DNA from: Hyphomicrobiales bacterium
GTDB taxonomy: Bacteria; Pseudomonadota; Alphaproteobacteria; Rhizobiales; Xanthobacteraceae
Direction: 5' to 3'
DNA: 64,000 bases
Assembly (NCBI GenBank): GCA_017305535.1
Contig: JAFKKN010000006.1
Location: 124,001-188,000 of the forward strand
In this document: positions 17,878-24,228 of the stretch, one piece after another
Numbering within the stretch: the first letter of the stretch is position 1
How the letters are laid out: every line of letters begins with the position of its first letter
Program-made: the position numbers and the translations under genes
Notes under the pieces: model-generated
Database searches by the model: none
Seen by the model: the letters and a program-made list of their open reading frames with translations, nothing else
What the model was told of the DNA's origin: nothing

Positions 17878-18306
17878 ATGACCGCTTTGAAACAAACCCT
17901 TGCCGCGATGGCCCTCGGCGCCTGCTTGGCCGCCACCCCGGCACTCGCCGAAACCGTCGCCATGAAAGCGACCTTGAACGCCGCGTCTCAGGTCCCCGTT
18001 AACGACAGCAAGGGCACCGGCACGGCAGCCGTTACCTACGACACCGTGAGCAAGAAGCTGAGCTGGAAAGTGACCTATGCCGGCCTCACCGGCCCCGCCA
18101 CCGCCGGCCACTTTCACGGCCCGGCCGATCCCGGCAAGAACGCCGGCGTCGCCGTTCCGTTCACCAAGGTCGACACCAGCCCGATCGAAGGCAGCGCCAC
18201 GCTGACCGACGCGCAGGCCGCGGATCTGCTAGCGGGCAAGTACTACGTCAACATCCACACCAAGGCGCACCCGGGCGGCGAAATTCGCGGTCAGGTGACG
18301 AAGTAA
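17878..18306 (+). CDS. Secreted CHRD-domain protein
   Basis: 142 residues. The signal peptide (about 1-24) ends in TPALA before ETVAMKA. The mature part is one CHRD domain, recognised by AGHFHGPADPG and the closing YYVNIHTKAHPGGEIRGQV. CHRD domains were first described in chordin and occur widely in bacterial exported proteins; the conserved His residues suggest metal binding, but no function is established. GGGAG seven bases before the ATG gives a strong start. No operon partner. Confidence 0.92.
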   Translation: MTALKQTLAAMALGACLAATPALAETVAMKATLNAASQVPVNDSKGTGTAAVTYDTVSKKLSWKVTYAGLTGPATAGHFHGPADPGKNAGVAVPFTKVDTSPIEGSATLTDAQAADLLAGKYYVNIHTKAHPGGEIRGQVTK

Positions 18307-18368
18307 GCGAGCCAGAATCGCTTCGCATTCCGCGTCATTGCAAAGAGTACTCGGATTGGCGCTTTGCG

Positions 18369-18504
18369 CCATCCATCTTCATGGCCGGTCATAGCCGTTC
18401 GAAGAACGGCGTCGCTTCGCTCGCCTATGAGATCCCGGCCATTCACGTCTTTCTCCTTGAACGGCCCTTAAGACGTGGATGTCCGGCACAAGGCCGGGCA
18501 TGAC
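18369..18504. repeat. Intergenic palindromic repeat, family A with nested 40-bp module
   Basis: Outer arms of family A (ATGGCCGG...ACGTCTT and AAGACGTGGAT...GCCGGGCATGACGG). At 18390-18429 it carries the 40-bp module running from CATAGCCGTTCGAAGAACGG to the closing CGCTCGCCTATG. The module is itself bounded by CATAG/CTATG and has an internal CCGTTC/GAACGG hairpin. It lies between the ends of the CHRD and cytochrome genes, so it could terminate both. Confidence 0.85.
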
Positions 18505-18544
18505 GGATCACGTTGAGTCCGTCGTAATCTACGTTCGCTCAAGG

Positions 18545-19465
18545 TTAGTGCGTCCCCTTCGGACGCGGCGGTCCATCGACCGGCGGCAGCGACTTGAGAT
18601 AAACCGCCATCGCGGTGCGATCCTCGGCGCTGAGTTGCGACGTGTTCTTGATCACACTCACCATCGAGCCGCCGGCGGAATCGCCATCCGGCAACAAGCC
18701 GCTTTCAAGGAAGTAAGCGATATCCTTCTCGCTCCAGTCGTCGAGATGCTTCTGGGTGATGTTCGGCACCCAACCCTTGCCTTCCGGGTTCGGCCCGCCG
18801 CCGAAACGCTGCGCTGTGACGATGCCGCCGAGCGCGTTGCGCGGGCTGTGACACTCGGCGCAATGGCCGAGCGTGTTCACGAGATACGCGCCGCGATTCC
18901 ACTGCGGTGATTGCCCGGCGACCGCCGCGAACGGCTGCCGCTCCATGAACAGCAATTTCCAGATGCCGACATTGCGCCGGATGCTGAAGGGAAACGCGAT
19001 CTCATGCGCGGGCGCGGCTCCGCTCACCGGCGGCAGCGTCTTGATATAGGCGAACATGTCGCGAATGTCGGTCAGTTTCGCGCGATGGTACGAGGCGTAA
19101 GGAAACGCCGGGAAGTAATGCGCGCCCTGCGGCGACACGCCTTCGAGAACAGCGGTGACGAACTGCGCTTCGCTCCAGCCTCCAATGCCGTCCTTCGCAT
19201 CGGGCGAGATGTTCGGCACGTGGAAGGTGCCGAACGGCGTCGTTAGCGGCAAACCACCGCCGAGCCGCGTGCGATCCGGCTGGTTCGGCACCGCGTGACA
19301 GGAGGAGCAGCCACCGATGTTGAAAGCCGTCTTGCCGTTGGCGATATCCGGCGTATGGGCCGGCAACGCGCTCGCGGCGATCACGACCGGCATCGTCAGC
19401 CACCAATAGACGGCAAAGCCCGCGACGATGACGATGGCGGCCAGAATCGAAAGTCGTCGCATCAT
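18545..19465 (-). CDS. Diheme cytochrome c, membrane-anchored, dehydrogenase electron-acceptor type
   Basis: 306 residues. An N-terminal signal anchor (about 5-35) is followed by two cytochrome c domains with CSSCH (Cys53, His57) and CAECH (Cys202, His206). The segment HYFPAFPYASYHRAKLTD and the helix after it resemble cytochrome subunits of membrane-bound alcohol, gluconate and aldehyde/isoquinoline dehydrogenases, which move electrons from a periplasmic enzyme to the respiratory chain. Those relatives usually have three hemes; this one has two. Third gene of a same-strand set after the molybdopterin subunit and cytochrome c'. The ATG at 19465 is chosen to open directly on the signal anchor. 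Confidence 0.88.
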   Translation of the reverse strand: MMRRLSILAAIVIVAGFAVYWWLTMPVVIAASALPAHTPDIANGKTAFNIGGCSSCHAVPNQPDRTRLGGGLPLTTPFGTFHVPNISPDAKDGIGGWSEAQFVTAVLEGVSPQGAHYFPAFPYASYHRAKLTDIRDMFAYIKTLPPVSGAAPAHEIAFPFSIRRNVGIWKLLFMERQPFAAVAGQSPQWNRGAYLVNTLGHCAECHSPRNALGGIVTAQRFGGGPNPEGKGWVPNITQKHLDDWSEKDIAYFLESGLLPDGDSAGGSMVSVIKNTSQLSAEDRTAMAVYLKSLPPVDGPPRPKGTH

Positions 19466-19563
19466 GCGTTCCGCCGTGCTGTCTTTTGATGAAGGCCACG
19501 CGTCCGACAACGCATCCTATGAGTCTGGCTCGAAATAGAATTCATCGGACCAAACAACTTCAG

Positions 19564-19683
19564 CGTCGTCCCCGCGCAGGCGGGGACCCACTACCCCTGG
19601 CGTGAGGTATCGCAAAGAAACTCGCCCTGGTAATAGAGCCGAACCGCTGCGGCGTATGGGTCCCCGCCTTCGCGGGGACGACT
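19564..19683. repeat. Intergenic palindromic repeat, family B
   Basis: Outer arms GTCGTCCCCGCGCAGGCGGG and its inverted copy near 19668-19683 (GGGTCCCCGCCTTCGCGGGG). Each arm is itself a GC-rich hairpin. The ~70-bp middle differs between the three family B copies. It lies between the two cytochrome genes, where it could weaken read-through. Confidence 0.85.
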
Positions 19684-19727
19684 CTTTTCGTGTGGCAAAT
19701 CCGCCCAAAAAGAATCCCCGACCGACC

Positions 19728-20180
19728 CTAGCCTTCCTTCAGCCGATAGGTTTCATGACAGCCGGAGCACTGCTTGCCGAGCGCCGGCACCGCCGCCTTC
19801 AGTGCATCGAGATTCTTGATGCCGGCGGCCGCGACTTCGTTGACCGCCTTGGTATAGCTCGCAATGTGGGAGTCGAAATCGGCCCGGTTCTCCCAGATTT
19901 TCGGCGACGCGCTGTATTTGCCGTCCGCCTTCAGCCCTTTGGTGTTCTCCGGGAACAGCGTACCCATCGTCTTGGCGTTTTCGGCGAGCTTGGCAACCGC
20001 CGCATCCACCGCCGCCTGGTCGTAAGGCTTCTCGCCCTTCGCCATGGCGCCGAGCACGCCGCCGATATTCTTGCCGTTTTCCTTCATCGAGGTCTGGCGC
20101 TGATTGACGACGTCCTGCTGCGCGTAGACCGCGCCAATTCCCAGCAGCACCGCCGCAACCGTCACGAACATCCGCTTCAT
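19728..20180 (-). CDS. Cytochrome c' / c556-type monoheme cytochrome
   Basis: 150 residues. The signal peptide (1-20) ends at VYAQ. The mature protein is a predicted four-helix bundle with a single heme motif CSGCH near the C-terminus (Cys138, Cys141, His142), followed by a short tail. This C-terminal heme position defines cytochrome c'. These periplasmic proteins bind NO or transfer electrons. It lies 126 bases after the molybdopterin subunit and before the diheme cytochrome, all on the minus strand, consistent with a shared electron path. That grouping is inferred from order. Confidence 0.92.
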   Translation of the reverse strand: MKRMFVTVAAVLLGIGAVYAQQDVVNQRQTSMKENGKNIGGVLGAMAKGEKPYDQAAVDAAVAKLAENAKTMGTLFPENTKGLKADGKYSASPKIWENRADFDSHIASYTKAVNEVAAAGIKNLDALKAAVPALGKQCSGCHETYRLKEG

Positions 20181-20306
20181 TGGCTCATCTTCTCCCTGGC
20201 TGGACCGCCGTAGTCACGGCGGCCTGTTTCCGATGACGATGCGTTGTGATCCGAAAGACGCGCCGACCGGCGCCCGGACCTGATGAACAACCCCGCGACG
20301 GCCGAC

Positions 20307-22631
20307 CTATTCCGCGGCCTCGCTACGCTGTCCCTCACGGATGGCGACCCAGACGCGCTCCGGCGTCGCCGGCATGTCGATATGATCGACGCCGTATTCG
20401 CGCCACAACGCATCGACAATGGCGTTGACCACCGCCGGGCACGAACCGATGGCGCCCGCCTCGCCCGCGCCCTTGACGCCAAGCGGATTGGTGACGCACG
20501 GCACGTTGTGGGTCTCGAAGGTGATCGGCGTACCGTCGCTGGCGCGTGGCATCGCATAATCCATGAAGGTGCCGGTGACGAGTTGGCCGTCGTCGGCGTC
20601 ATAGACCGCACGCTCCATCAGCGCCTGACCAATGCCCTGCATCGTGCCGCCATGGACCTGCCCCGCCAGCATCAGCGGATTGAGCGTCGCGCCGAAATCA
20701 TCGACCACGACGTAATTCACCAGCCGTGTCACGCCGGTGGACGGATCAATCTCGACTTCCACCAGATGCGTGCCGTTGGGAAACGTGCCGTCGGCGCTGC
20801 TGAACTTCTCGCTGGCATTCATCTTCGCCGGATCGGCACCGGGACGCTTCGCCAGATCGGCGAAGGAGATGGTGCGGTCGGTACCCGCGACGCGGATGAC
20901 GCCCGCATCAATCTCGAGATCGGTCGCGCCGGCTTCCAGCGCTTCGGCGGCAATCTCCTTCAGCTTGGCACCGAGATCGCGGGTGGCGCGCTGTACGCTG
21001 ACGCCGCCGGATGGAATCGCACTCGAGCCGCCTGTGCCGAGCCCGGTCGCCACCTGATCGGTGTCGCCCTGAATGACGTGGATACGCTCCAGCGGCAGGC
21101 CGAACTGCTCGCTGACCAGTTGCGCGTAAGCGGTCTGGTGGCCCTGCCCGCTCGACTGCGAACCGATCCGCACCGTGACGTCGCCGTTGGGATCGAGCTG
21201 CACGTTGGCGGTTTCCTCGCCCATGGTGCCGCAAACCTCGACATAGCTCGCGAGCCCGATGCCGCGCACCAGCCCCTGCTTCTTCGCGGCCTTGGCGCGC
21301 TTGGAAAAGCCCTTCCAGTCTCCGATCTCCATCGCGCGCTTCAAGTGCGCGGCGAAGTCGCCGGAGTCGTAGACCTTGCCGGTCGCGGTGGTATAGGGCA
21401 GCGCACGCGGCGCGATGAAGTTTTTCAAACGGATCGCATCCGGCGTCATGCCGAGTTTTCGCGCGGCCGCGTCGACCAGCCGCTCGACCACGTAAGCGGC
21501 TTCCGGCCGCCCCGCGCCACGATAGGCATCGACCGGCACGGTATTGGTGAACACCGTGCGGATGCGGCAGTGGAACGCCTGAATATCGTAGAGACCCGGC
21601 AGCATCCCGGCGCCGCCATGCGGGATGTAAGGCCCGAAGGTCGACAGATAGCCGCCCATGTCGCCGATCAGATCGACATCCATGCCGAGAAACTTGCCGT
21701 CCTTGCGCAGCGCCATGCGCGCGGTGGTGACGTTATCGCGGCCCTGCGAGTCGCCCATGAAGTGGTCGGCGCGCTCGGCGGTCCAGCGCACGCTCTTCTT
21801 CAGCTTGCGCGAGGCGACCGCGATCAGTGCGTATTCGCGATAGGGAAACAGCTTCGTGCCGAAGCCGCCGCCGACATCCGGGCAGATCACCCGCATGTTC
21901 TCGACCGGCATGTGCAGAATGTTCTGACACAGGATATCGCGCAGGCGATGGCTGCCCTGGCTGCCGATGGTCAGCGTCAGGTGATCGCGCTTGGCGTCGT
22001 ATTCGCACACTGCCGCGCGCGTCTCCATGTAGTTGGTGACGATCCGCGGATTGACGATGGAAATCTCCGCCACCGCATCGGCGTTGGCGAATGCCGCTTC
22101 CGCCGCCGCCTTGTTGCCGATGCCGACGTCGAACAGCACGTTGTCCGGAAATTGCGGCCACACCGCCGGCGCGCCCTTCTTCACCGCATTGGCGGCGCCG
22201 ACCACCGCAGGCAGCGGCGCCCATTCCACTGCCACCGCTTCGATCGCGTCACGCGCGTGCGAAAGAGTGTCCGCCACCACGAAGGCAATCGCATCGCCGA
22301 CATGGCGCACTTCGCCCTGCGCGAGGATCGGATAAGGCGGCGCGGTGAACGGATTATCCGGCAGATTGAACAGGCACGGCAGACCACCGAGATCCTTGAT
22401 GTCGTCGGCGGTCAGAATCAGCGCGACGCCGGGCAGCGCACGTGCCTGCGTGGCATCGATCTTGAATTTGGCGTGGGCGTGCGGCGAGCGCAGCATCAGC
22501 GCGTGCATCGCCGGCGCCGGCGCGTGATCGTCGGTATAGCGGCCGCGACCGCGCACCAGCGCATCATCTTCCTTGCGACGCGCGCTTTGTCCGACGCCAA
22601 ACTTCACCGGGGCCGTGTTGATCTGAGCCAT
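20307..22631 (-). CDS. Molybdopterin-binding large subunit of a xanthine-oxidase-family dehydrogenase (CoxL form II type)
   Basis: 774 residues. The molybdenum-cofactor domains show DVGGGFGTK (252-260), AYRGAGR (369-375), GSQSSGQGHQT (490-500) and the catalytic-glutamate loop GVKGAGEAG (718-726, Glu724). AYRGAGR marks the form II group; true CO dehydrogenase has AYxCSFR. The substrate is therefore probably an aldehyde or N-heterocycle, not CO. No [2Fe-2S] small subunit or FAD medium subunit gene adjoins it: MurJ lies upstream and two cytochromes c downstream. No Tat signal is visible. GGGAG six bases before the ATG at 22631 fixes the start. Confidence 0.92.
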   Translation of the reverse strand: MAQINTAPVKFGVGQSARRKEDDALVRGRGRYTDDHAPAPAMHALMLRSPHAHAKFKIDATQARALPGVALILTADDIKDLGGLPCLFNLPDNPFTAPPYPILAQGEVRHVGDAIAFVVADTLSHARDAIEAVAVEWAPLPAVVGAANAVKKGAPAVWPQFPDNVLFDVGIGNKAAAEAAFANADAVAEISIVNPRIVTNYMETRAAVCEYDAKRDHLTLTIGSQGSHRLRDILCQNILHMPVENMRVICPDVGGGFGTKLFPYREYALIAVASRKLKKSVRWTAERADHFMGDSQGRDNVTTARMALRKDGKFLGMDVDLIGDMGGYLSTFGPYIPHGGAGMLPGLYDIQAFHCRIRTVFTNTVPVDAYRGAGRPEAAYVVERLVDAAARKLGMTPDAIRLKNFIAPRALPYTTATGKVYDSGDFAAHLKRAMEIGDWKGFSKRAKAAKKQGLVRGIGLASYVEVCGTMGEETANVQLDPNGDVTVRIGSQSSGQGHQTAYAQLVSEQFGLPLERIHVIQGDTDQVATGLGTGGSSAIPSGGVSVQRATRDLGAKLKEIAAEALEAGATDLEIDAGVIRVAGTDRTISFADLAKRPGADPAKMNASEKFSSADGTFPNGTHLVEVEIDPSTGVTRLVNYVVVDDFGATLNPLMLAGQVHGGTMQGIGQALMERAVYDADDGQLVTGTFMDYAMPRASDGTPITFETHNVPCVTNPLGVKGAGEAGAIGSCPAVVNAIVDALWREYGVDHIDMPATPERVWVAIREGQRSEAAE

Positions 22632-22698
22632 GGTTGCTCCCATTGCAATTTGGATTGAATCTACATTGCAGGGCCGCGCTGGCAACTTCAAATTCGCG

Positions 22699-24228
22699 TC
22701 AGGCCCGGATCAGGGCGCGCACCCCGCTGCGACCAAACAGCGCCAGCACCATGACACCATAGACAATGATTCCTGTGACCATCAGGAGGAGGAGCATGGT
22801 TTCGTCGCGAAATGCGCTCAATTGCGCCAGATATCCGCTCGCGACACGCACCATCAGCCAGAAGGCGACGGCAAGCACGCCACCGGCGACCACGAACTTC
22901 AACAGCGATAGTCCGAAGCGGCGGTCGAAGGTGAGATAGCCCGCGCGCACGGCCAAACCGAGCACCAGCAAGAGGTTGACCCATGATCCGACGGCGGTGG
23001 CCAGCGCCAGACCGACCTGCGCCAGCGATCCCATCAGCGCCACCTTGAGCACCAGATTGACCGCGAGCCCGGTCAGCGAGGCCTTCACCGGTGTCGCAGT
23101 ATCCTTGCGCGCGTAAAAAGTGGCGACAGCGCTGCGGATCGTTACCACCGGAATGAGCCCGATGGTATAGGCGGCGAGCGTCGCCCCGGCAGCGGCAGCA
23201 TCGGCGGCGGAAAAAGCGCCACGCGCGAACATCGCCCGCATGATGATGTCGGGCACCGTCAGGAACGCCGCGACGAACGGCACCGAGAACAGCAGCGAGA
23301 ACTGGAAGGCGCGAAGCTGCGACGCCATCGCGCCTGCATGATCGCCGGCGGTGATCCGCCGCGCCATCTCCGGCAGCAGCACGGTGCCGATCGCGATGCC
23401 GATCACACCGATCGGCAGCTGGTAGAGCCGGTCCGCGTAGTACAGCGCCGACACCGCGCCGGCGGCGAGGAATGTCGCGATGATGGTATCGGCGAACATC
23501 GCCAGTTGCGCGCCCATCGAGCCGACTGTCGCGGGGCCGAGCGCACGAAAGAAGCCGCGCACATCGGCATCAAGCGTCGGCCGCGTCAGGCGCGGCAGCA
23601 ACCCTTGCCGCGCGGCATCGGCGGCGAGCAAAAAATATTGCAGGAAACCGGAGATCAGCACGCCCCACGCGGCCGCGTGTCCGGCATCGGGAAAGAACGC
23701 CGCGAGCGCCAGCGTCGCCATCATCGACAAATTGAGGAAGATCGGCGCGGCGGCAGCGCTGGCAAAACGCTGCGCAACATTCAGCATGCCGCCGTAGAGC
23801 GTCACCAGCGTGATCAGCAGCAAATAGGGAAAGGTGATCCGCGTCAGTGTCACCGCGAGTTCGCCGCGCACCGGATCGTGCACGAAACCCGGCGCCAGCA
23901 GCGCGATCACCTGCGGCATGAACAGCCACGCCACCGCGAGCAGAATGATCTGCGACCCCAGCAGCAGCGTGAAGATGCGGTTGGCGAACAGATGCGCGGC
24001 GCCCGGCCCACCATTGCCGCTGACATGCGCATAGGCCGGCACAAATGCGGCGTTGAAAGCCCCCTCGGCAAAAATCGCGCGGAAGTGATTCGGCAACCGC
24101 AGCGCCACGAAGAAGGCGTCGGCCAGCGGCCCCGCACCGAGAATGGCGGCGAGCATGATGTCGCGCGCGAACCCGGTGACGCGCGACAACAGGGTAAAGC
24201 CGCCGACGGTGAAGATTCGCCTGAGCAT
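22699..24228 (-). CDS. murJ: Lipid II flippase MurJ (MviN)
   Basis: 509 residues of the MOP superfamily with about 14 membrane helices. The N-terminus LLSRVTGFARDIMLA and the following GPLADAFFVALRLPN...FAEGAFNAAFVP are diagnostic for MurJ, which moves lipid-linked peptidoglycan precursor across the inner membrane. It lies 43 bases after the DegT aminotransferase gene on the same strand and is probably co-transcribed. Placing murJ with LPS-sugar genes rather than with the mur cluster is less common and suggests joint control of wall and outer-membrane synthesis. Confidence 0.96.
   Translation of the reverse strand: MLRRIFTVGGFTLLSRVTGFARDIMLAAILGAGPLADAFFVALRLPNHFRAIFAEGAFNAAFVPAYAHVSGNGGPGAAHLFANRIFTLLLGSQIILLAVAWLFMPQVIALLAPGFVHDPVRGELAVTLTRITFPYLLLITLVTLYGGMLNVAQRFASAAAAPIFLNLSMMATLALAAFFPDAGHAAAWGVLISGFLQYFLLAADAARQGLLPRLTRPTLDADVRGFFRALGPATVGSMGAQLAMFADTIIATFLAAGAVSALYYADRLYQLPIGVIGIAIGTVLLPEMARRITAGDHAGAMASQLRAFQFSLLFSVPFVAAFLTVPDIIMRAMFARGAFSAADAAAAGATLAAYTIGLIPVVTIRSAVATFYARKDTATPVKASLTGLAVNLVLKVALMGSLAQVGLALATAVGSWVNLLLVLGLAVRAGYLTFDRRFGLSLLKFVVAGGVLAVAFWLMVRVASGYLAQLSAFRDETMLLLLMVTGIIVYGVMVLALFGRSGVRALIRA

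Follow-up and report, generated by a model that had tools for sequence, protein, structure and literature searches.

A molybdenum hydroxylase large subunit encoded apart from its probable iron–sulphur and flavin partners in a Hyphomicrobiales genome

The window analysed here, a stretch of 64,000 nucleotides from a Hyphomicrobiales bacterium (GCA_017305535.1, contig JAFKKN010000006.1, positions 124,001 to 188,000), carries on its minus strand a lone gene, here called W (20307..22631), for a molybdopterin-binding large subunit of the CoxL form-II type. Its product of 774 residues is a catalytic subunit as judged from Pfam domains, motifs and PDB homologues. Downstream on the same strand, after a gap of 126 bp, lies the gene of a cytochrome c' with a signal peptide (19728..20180; PF01322, one CxxCH), and after a further 262 bp that of a membrane-anchored diheme cytochrome c of dehydrogenase-acceptor type (18545..19465; PF00034/PF13442), which has two CxxCH motifs and a hydrophobic N-terminal anchor; in its PDB homologues, cytochrome subunits of fructose, aldehyde, glucose and alcohol dehydrogenases, the match covers the first part. 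Upstream, 67 bp away and also on the minus strand, is murJ (22699..24228; identified by TIGR01695, PF03023 and synteny), which served as the landmark for deletions of W in relatives. The first-pass annotation of this locus had described a complete form-II CoxL-type subunit followed by a cytochrome c' and a membrane-anchored diheme cytochrome, and had noted that neither a [2Fe-2S] nor an FAD subunit gene adjoins them. Domains, motif positions, CxxCH motifs and coordinates all agree with this description, and the iron–sulphur (FeS, PF01799) and FAD (PF00941) domains have zero matches anywhere on the contig. Most likely, with a probability of about 0.8, W is the catalytic molybdenum (Mo) subunit of a heterotrimeric Mo hydroxylase that would work in the cytoplasm, with FeS and FAD subunits supplied in trans from another contig by a module probably shared with other large subunits.

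PF01315, PF02738 and PF20256 all score well over cut-off in W, and the Ald_Xan_dh_C, MoCoBD_1 and MoCoBD_2 domains of a xanthine oxidase family large subunit are thus present. The motif AYRGAGR, characteristic of form-II CoxL-like proteins, lies at residue 369. Residue 724, as in the first reading of the window, is the Glu of the GxGE motif (in GAGEAG), which we take to be the active-site Glu; these motifs are intact in 42/42 genes read (40 W genes and two of a fifth lone type described below). W is under cut-off for all 13 NCBIfam families that it matches, the best being glyceraldehyde dehydrogenase alpha (590 bits against a cut-off of 790), and its closest solved structures are the CoxL proteins of carbon monoxide dehydrogenases (CODH), then the large subunit of quinoline 2-oxidoreductase. 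The form-I CoxL motif, defined as (A/S)YRCS(F/L)R in the relevant part of a 2026 survey (PMC13240472), is replaced by AYRGAGR in the window and in all 42 genes read, and the form-I equivalog TIGR02416 gives 516 bits against a cut-off of 991. W was rejected as a CO dehydrogenase on motif and score, and since the form-I motif is absent, CO is unlikely to be its substrate. Where it deals with form II, the same survey lists AYRGAGR and calls the activity unresolved (PMC13240472). W has no CxxCH, and no export signal is seen: hydropathy over 15 residues peaks at 0.25 near its N-terminus, whereas the two cytochromes reach 2.5 and 2.8. The signal asymmetry that had been noted as a compartment problem is therefore real, and the problem itself vanishes if W acts in the cytoplasm with its FeS and FAD partners, whose cytoplasmic location was judged by eye from their N-termini and that of W by hydropathy.

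The whole genome (G000; 4.73 Mb in 15 contigs, 99% complete) contains 12 large (L), 10 FeS (S) and 7 FAD (M) subunit genes. When an S within 5 kb is counted as the partner of an L, 9/10 S genes have an L, and three L genes have no S nearby: W, C13:105176 and C14:304901 (named by contig and position; hereafter the C13 and C14 types). Three further L genes, each with an adjoining S, have low MoCoBD_1 scores and were tentatively classed as ior-type on that basis. The one remaining S stands with its M at C9:90392-91761; the first-pass annotation had half guessed that the small subunit was elsewhere, and the search of the contigs bears this out with a matching S–M pair. The C9 cluster lies on one strand and comprises coxG, S, M, coxD (a MoxR-type ATPase), coxE, two XdhC-like pieces and a MobA-like nucleotidyltransferase, and has no L. 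Its coxG, S, M, AAA ATPase and NTP transferase labels are Pfam-based; coxD, coxE and XdhC are presumed identities, taken from our reading of the open reading frames and their position. W, the C13 and C14 genes and the L at C1:403 share 41-45% mutual identity and are nearer to each other than to other L. The C9 S and M are nearest to the S and M beside the C1:403 L (68% and 60% identity, respectively), and therefore partner type and L type match.

The same arrangement recurs in relatives. No S or M of this clade was found in the fetched stretches around 40 W genes examined across the family (39 loci). That reading excludes a loss of S and M peculiar to this genome, and it disposes of the case foreseen in the first-pass annotation, that relatives would always have S and M nearby. 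Eighteen hand-picked genomes were counted in full for PF02738 and PF01799. In two of them, from the Nitrobacter group (G061, a single contig of 3.40 Mb, and G102), W is the sole L and the S of the L-less cluster is the sole S; in G061 the two are 1.2 Mb apart. Among the genomes with an L-less cluster (ten hand-picked ones and this one, n=11), each has exactly one lone S, and the numbers of lone L are 1, 1, 1, 1, 1, 1, 1, 2, 3, 7 and 13. Five counted genomes that have L genes and lack this M clade have zero lone L and zero lone S, and G044 and G074 have neither L nor S. Relatives mostly carry the same C9-type gene set; no coxD or coxE match stands beside the S–M of G031, G032 and G069.

Profiles of 149 family genomes, of which 122 are good (≥ 90% complete, ≤ 5% contaminated), used thresholds of ≥ 54% identity for W, E ≤ 1e-230 for the C13 and C14 types, E ≤ 1e-60 for M and E ≤ 1e-75 for the diheme cytochrome. 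W is present in 86/122 good genomes and M in all 86; 26 of the 36 without W also have M. When any of the three lone types is considered, clade M accompanies them in 101/101 good genomes (36/36 for the C13 type, 74/74 for the C14 type), and the genomes with none of them divide into 11 with M and 10 without (p 2.6e-9). Those ten good genomes without M thus have none of the lone types. W, S and M are under purifying selection: in four Nitrobacter-group genomes (G019, G061, G102, G119) the ratio of nonsynonymous to synonymous substitution rates is 0.11-0.13 for W, 0.14-0.18 for S and 0.09-0.14 for M, close to murJ (0.10-0.15), with looser values for coxG (0.11-0.36) and coxE (0.22-0.28). As a separate observation, in group g33 one genome (G069) has a tandem W pair (L169, L170) and a tandem M pair in its cluster, with a third M elsewhere; G109 has two W and two M matches, and G032 and G090 one of each. 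This is suggestive of co-duplication of W and M in trans, probably in one event.

The L trees, of 71 and 82 rows, come from quick searches, with support from the Shimodaira–Hasegawa-like approximate likelihood ratio test (SH-aLRT) only. The 71-row tree has a 40-row clade (SH-aLRT 100) made up of seven L that sit beside S–M and, sister to them, 33 rows (SH-aLRT 99) none of which has an S–M of its own; the earlier 82-row tree gives the same split with support of 85. The 33-row clade holds W, the C13 and C14 types, a fifth type, all seven lone L of G014, the one lone L of G031, 6/13 of those of G008 and 3/4 of those of G003. Two further G008 rows in the clade had first been labelled paired, and their nearby S belongs with other L, which gives eight for G008. 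The fifth type (L171 in G002, L173 in G012) is about 50% identical to W and forms a separate branch. The S+M tree has 54 rows (26 L-less clusters, 16 with a C1:403-type L beside S–M, 10 of the C1 copy and 2 outgroups) and implies at least four transitions between presence and absence of L, a count that cannot separate gain from loss. From the preserved order of coxG, S, M and the maturation genes we infer that the cluster probably lost its resident L. A further S–L–M cluster, in G105 of group g25 (L212), branches at the base of both the S–M and the L clades.

The separation extends beyond the family. Across the order, 199 genomes were searched at E ≤ 1e-230; 70 gave a W-like match, and 64 of these belong to other families, with 48-56% identity. 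Of these 64, 20 were fetched, from 18 families: S or M occurs in 0/20 stretches, although contig ends truncate some of them, and no arrangement linking W to S–M was found among these 20 loci. Encoding of L together with S and M, a mark of form-II CoxL-like proteins, is thus seen in 0/40 W genes read in the family and 0/20 W-like loci read outside it. That W-like genes are lone in 20/20 loci from 18 families shows that the split between L and S–M, as judged from gene arrangement, is old. In G305 a second lone-type L adjoins the W-like gene.

Gene content, clade membership, selection, co-presence and co-loss together suggest how assembly, sharing, cofactor form and electron route may be organised. 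In this scheme S and M would be supplied in trans by the C9 cluster, and the single S–M module with its maturation genes would serve several free L: W, C13 and C14 in this genome, and in relatives as many as seven or eight members of the clade. Each L would bind its own substrate. A sulfurated Mo cofactor, probably in the cytosine dinucleotide form, would be loaded by the XdhC, MobA-like and CoxDE proteins, and the loaded L would then join the common S–M unit in the cytoplasm. Electrons would pass from Mo through two [2Fe-2S] clusters to FAD and on to quinone, possibly via CoxG; in its part on CoxG, the 2026 survey reports a proposal that this protein hands Mo-CODH electrons to the quinone pool (PMC13240472). 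As for membership of an L–M–S heterotrimer, the tie of W to S–M is one of genetic association. It is reasonably likely, in our view, that this is a hub-and-spoke arrangement, with one FeS/FAD module and one maturation set for a clade of interchangeable, scattered L (one in Nitrobacter winogradskyi, three here, seven in G014, eight in G008). The L would have left the cluster anciently, the cluster would later have lost its resident L more than once, and S–M would have been kept under selection for the free L. In that case a new oxidation reaction could be gained by adding one gene.

Several observations weigh against this interpretation. G003 (98% complete, 6% contaminated) has four lone L, among them two W and one C14-type, and no lone S; no clade M was found in it at E ≤ 1e-60, and its best S match is only 54% identical. 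Over all 149 genomes the exceptions with a lone type and no M are G003, G068, G116 and G132, all outside the quality limits; the last three have W without M, though they are incomplete or contaminated. Seven of the 13 lone L of G008 and one of the four of G003 fall outside the clade, and therefore being lone is no proof of module use. The M profile makes no distinction between L-less clusters and those with a resident L, S was profiled in a subset of the genomes, and the Fisher p-values ignore kinship between species that are not independent, so that they overstate the case. Lastly, the diheme gene also goes strongly with two of the lone types across genomes: it is present and absent, respectively, in 69 and 5 good genomes with the C14 type against 12 and 36 without it, and in 36 and 0 with the C13 type against 45 and 41. 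Neither the C13 nor the C14 L adjoins a diheme gene in this genome, and we take this link as putatively one of shared genome ancestry. With respect to G008, which has 33 L and 20 S, its lone L outside the clade (L294-L299, L301) could represent a second sharing system or cut contigs; for at least four of its lone L a contig end is no more than about 3.5 kb away, and a partner may be cut off there.

The alternative that survives best, although we regard it as improbable, is that W pairs with the C9 S–M and that C13 and C14 use other S–M pairs, which would make a trans-encoded enzyme with no shared module. This genome does have other S–M pairs, including the near relative at C1:401-404 and unrelated ones, that could in principle serve some lone L, a further point to be set against sharing. 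However, the complete accompaniment of the C13 and C14 types by clade M in good genomes tells against this alternative, and 10/10 C13- and C14-type stretches read in relatives have no clade S or M. G014, too, speaks for sharing: its seven lone L all belong to the clade, and it has just one lone S and one clade M match.

Less credible is that W is a cytochrome-coupled dehydrogenase, a possibility raised in the first-pass annotation, and that the cytochrome c' and diheme cytochrome replace the FAD subunit, and perhaps the FeS subunit, in the fashion of the isoquinoline and nicotinate enzymes. Strand and order are shared, the cytochrome c' gene lies within 900 bp downstream of 30/40 W genes, both cytochromes stand beside 25/40, and the diheme protein is related to real dehydrogenase cytochrome subunits. 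W and the diheme gene also co-occur over chance in the 122 good genomes (64 with both, 22 with W only, 17 with the diheme only, 19 with neither; p 0.006, uncorrected for kinship), and the C14 type does so more strongly. Against this, each can be lost independently of the other. G106 and G139, of the Afipia group g26, have no W, C13-type, C14-type or clade M, and their locus reads murJ–cytochrome c'–diheme with W cut out, whereas the other four g26 genomes (G025, G065, G087, G123) have W and M; G007 shows the same arrangement without W, but is 74% complete. In the reverse case, five g20 genomes (G019, G061, G083, G102, G119) retain W and the module with neither cytochrome beside W; the diheme was not found genome-wide in them at E ≤ 1e-75, and the cytochrome c' was not sought genome-wide. 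The pair stands apart from W in G008, G012, G031, G002 and G004 (L185-L188, L191), and an opposite-strand gene for a CHRD-domain protein lies between the two cytochromes in five W loci and in L185. Among the 20 W-like loci of other families, 19 have neither cytochrome and one (G228) has both, as do short stretches at two more (G247, G327).

The cytochrome c' and the diheme are thus a conserved pair in their own right that often adjoins W, and both are probably neighbours and not functional partners of it. The order W–cytochrome c'–diheme, whose conservation the earlier reading had named as a test, is indeed conserved in many relatives, but it is not needed for retention of W. An IorB/NicB-type Mo hydroxylase has its c-heme domain fused to the Mo subunit or always inherited with it, and is exported; W, with no CxxCH, no signal and independent loss, does not resemble one. 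A cytochrome partnership was rejected on gene order, presence and absence, and the two opposite natural deletions. Least credible of all are the readings of W as a relic or as a homodimer that works without FeS and FAD subunits: an adjacent partner is absent at all 40 family W genes read, as they would predict, but W is under purifying selection with intact motifs and is co-present and co-lost with M of the matching clade.

Some further features of the locus may be recorded. A CHRD-domain secreted protein gene adjoins the diheme gene (17878-18306, plus strand). Between the cytochrome c' and diheme genes lies a 29-nt inverted repeat (19562-19590 and 19657-19685, 93% complementary) built of GTCCCCGC...GCGGGGAC palindromes, with the look of a repetitive extragenic palindromic (REP)-type element. 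Scanning 18300-22900 for promoters and terminators yielded 1 and 2 hits, respectively, against 0.8 and 3.8 in shuffled sequences.

Mo hydroxylases are usually read as dedicated L–M–S operons, and therefore lone coxL-like genes and L-less cox clusters have been set aside as incomplete. Searches of an open-access library, some of them directed at orphan or shared subunits, showed no report of Mo hydroxylase L sharing one S–M pair; subscription papers lie outside that scope. If lone L and L-less clusters do pair, an orphan oxidoreductase clade of Bradyrhizobium, Nitrobacter, Afipia and relatives would gain a partner, and its assembly could be tested. Nature would also have provided an instance of exchangeable catalytic subunits that draw on one redox module, in which substrates might be discovered by swapping L alone.

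The system proposed here shares with the form-II CODH-like Mo hydroxylases the AYRGAGR motif, the three-domain L, the [2Fe-2S] S, the FAD M, and coxG-, coxD-, coxE- and xdhC-like genes; it differs in that L lies outside the S–L–M operon and that several free L paralogues occur per S–M cluster. Mo hydroxylases of the IorAB, NicAB and PaoABC types feed respiratory carriers, some with c-hemes, whereas W is an L from a different branch. A parallel in subunit design is KdhLMS, the 6-hydroxypseudooxynicotine dehydrogenase of Arthrobacter nicotinovorans, in which L, M and S are separate chains, the small subunit bridges L and M, and cloning treats kdhL and kdhMS as two fragments; the part of that work concerned with the complex has one L per S–M and gives no indication of sharing (PMC8305194). 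A further comparison is with N. winogradskyi, for which a 2025 study, in its account of this organism, lists one Mo-CODH cluster without a large-subunit gene (PMC12815253). This is most likely the same cluster as the one studied here, and we propose that its missing L is W, beside murJ and elsewhere on the chromosome, which, if true, would explain the published lack of a Mo-CODH large subunit in that species.

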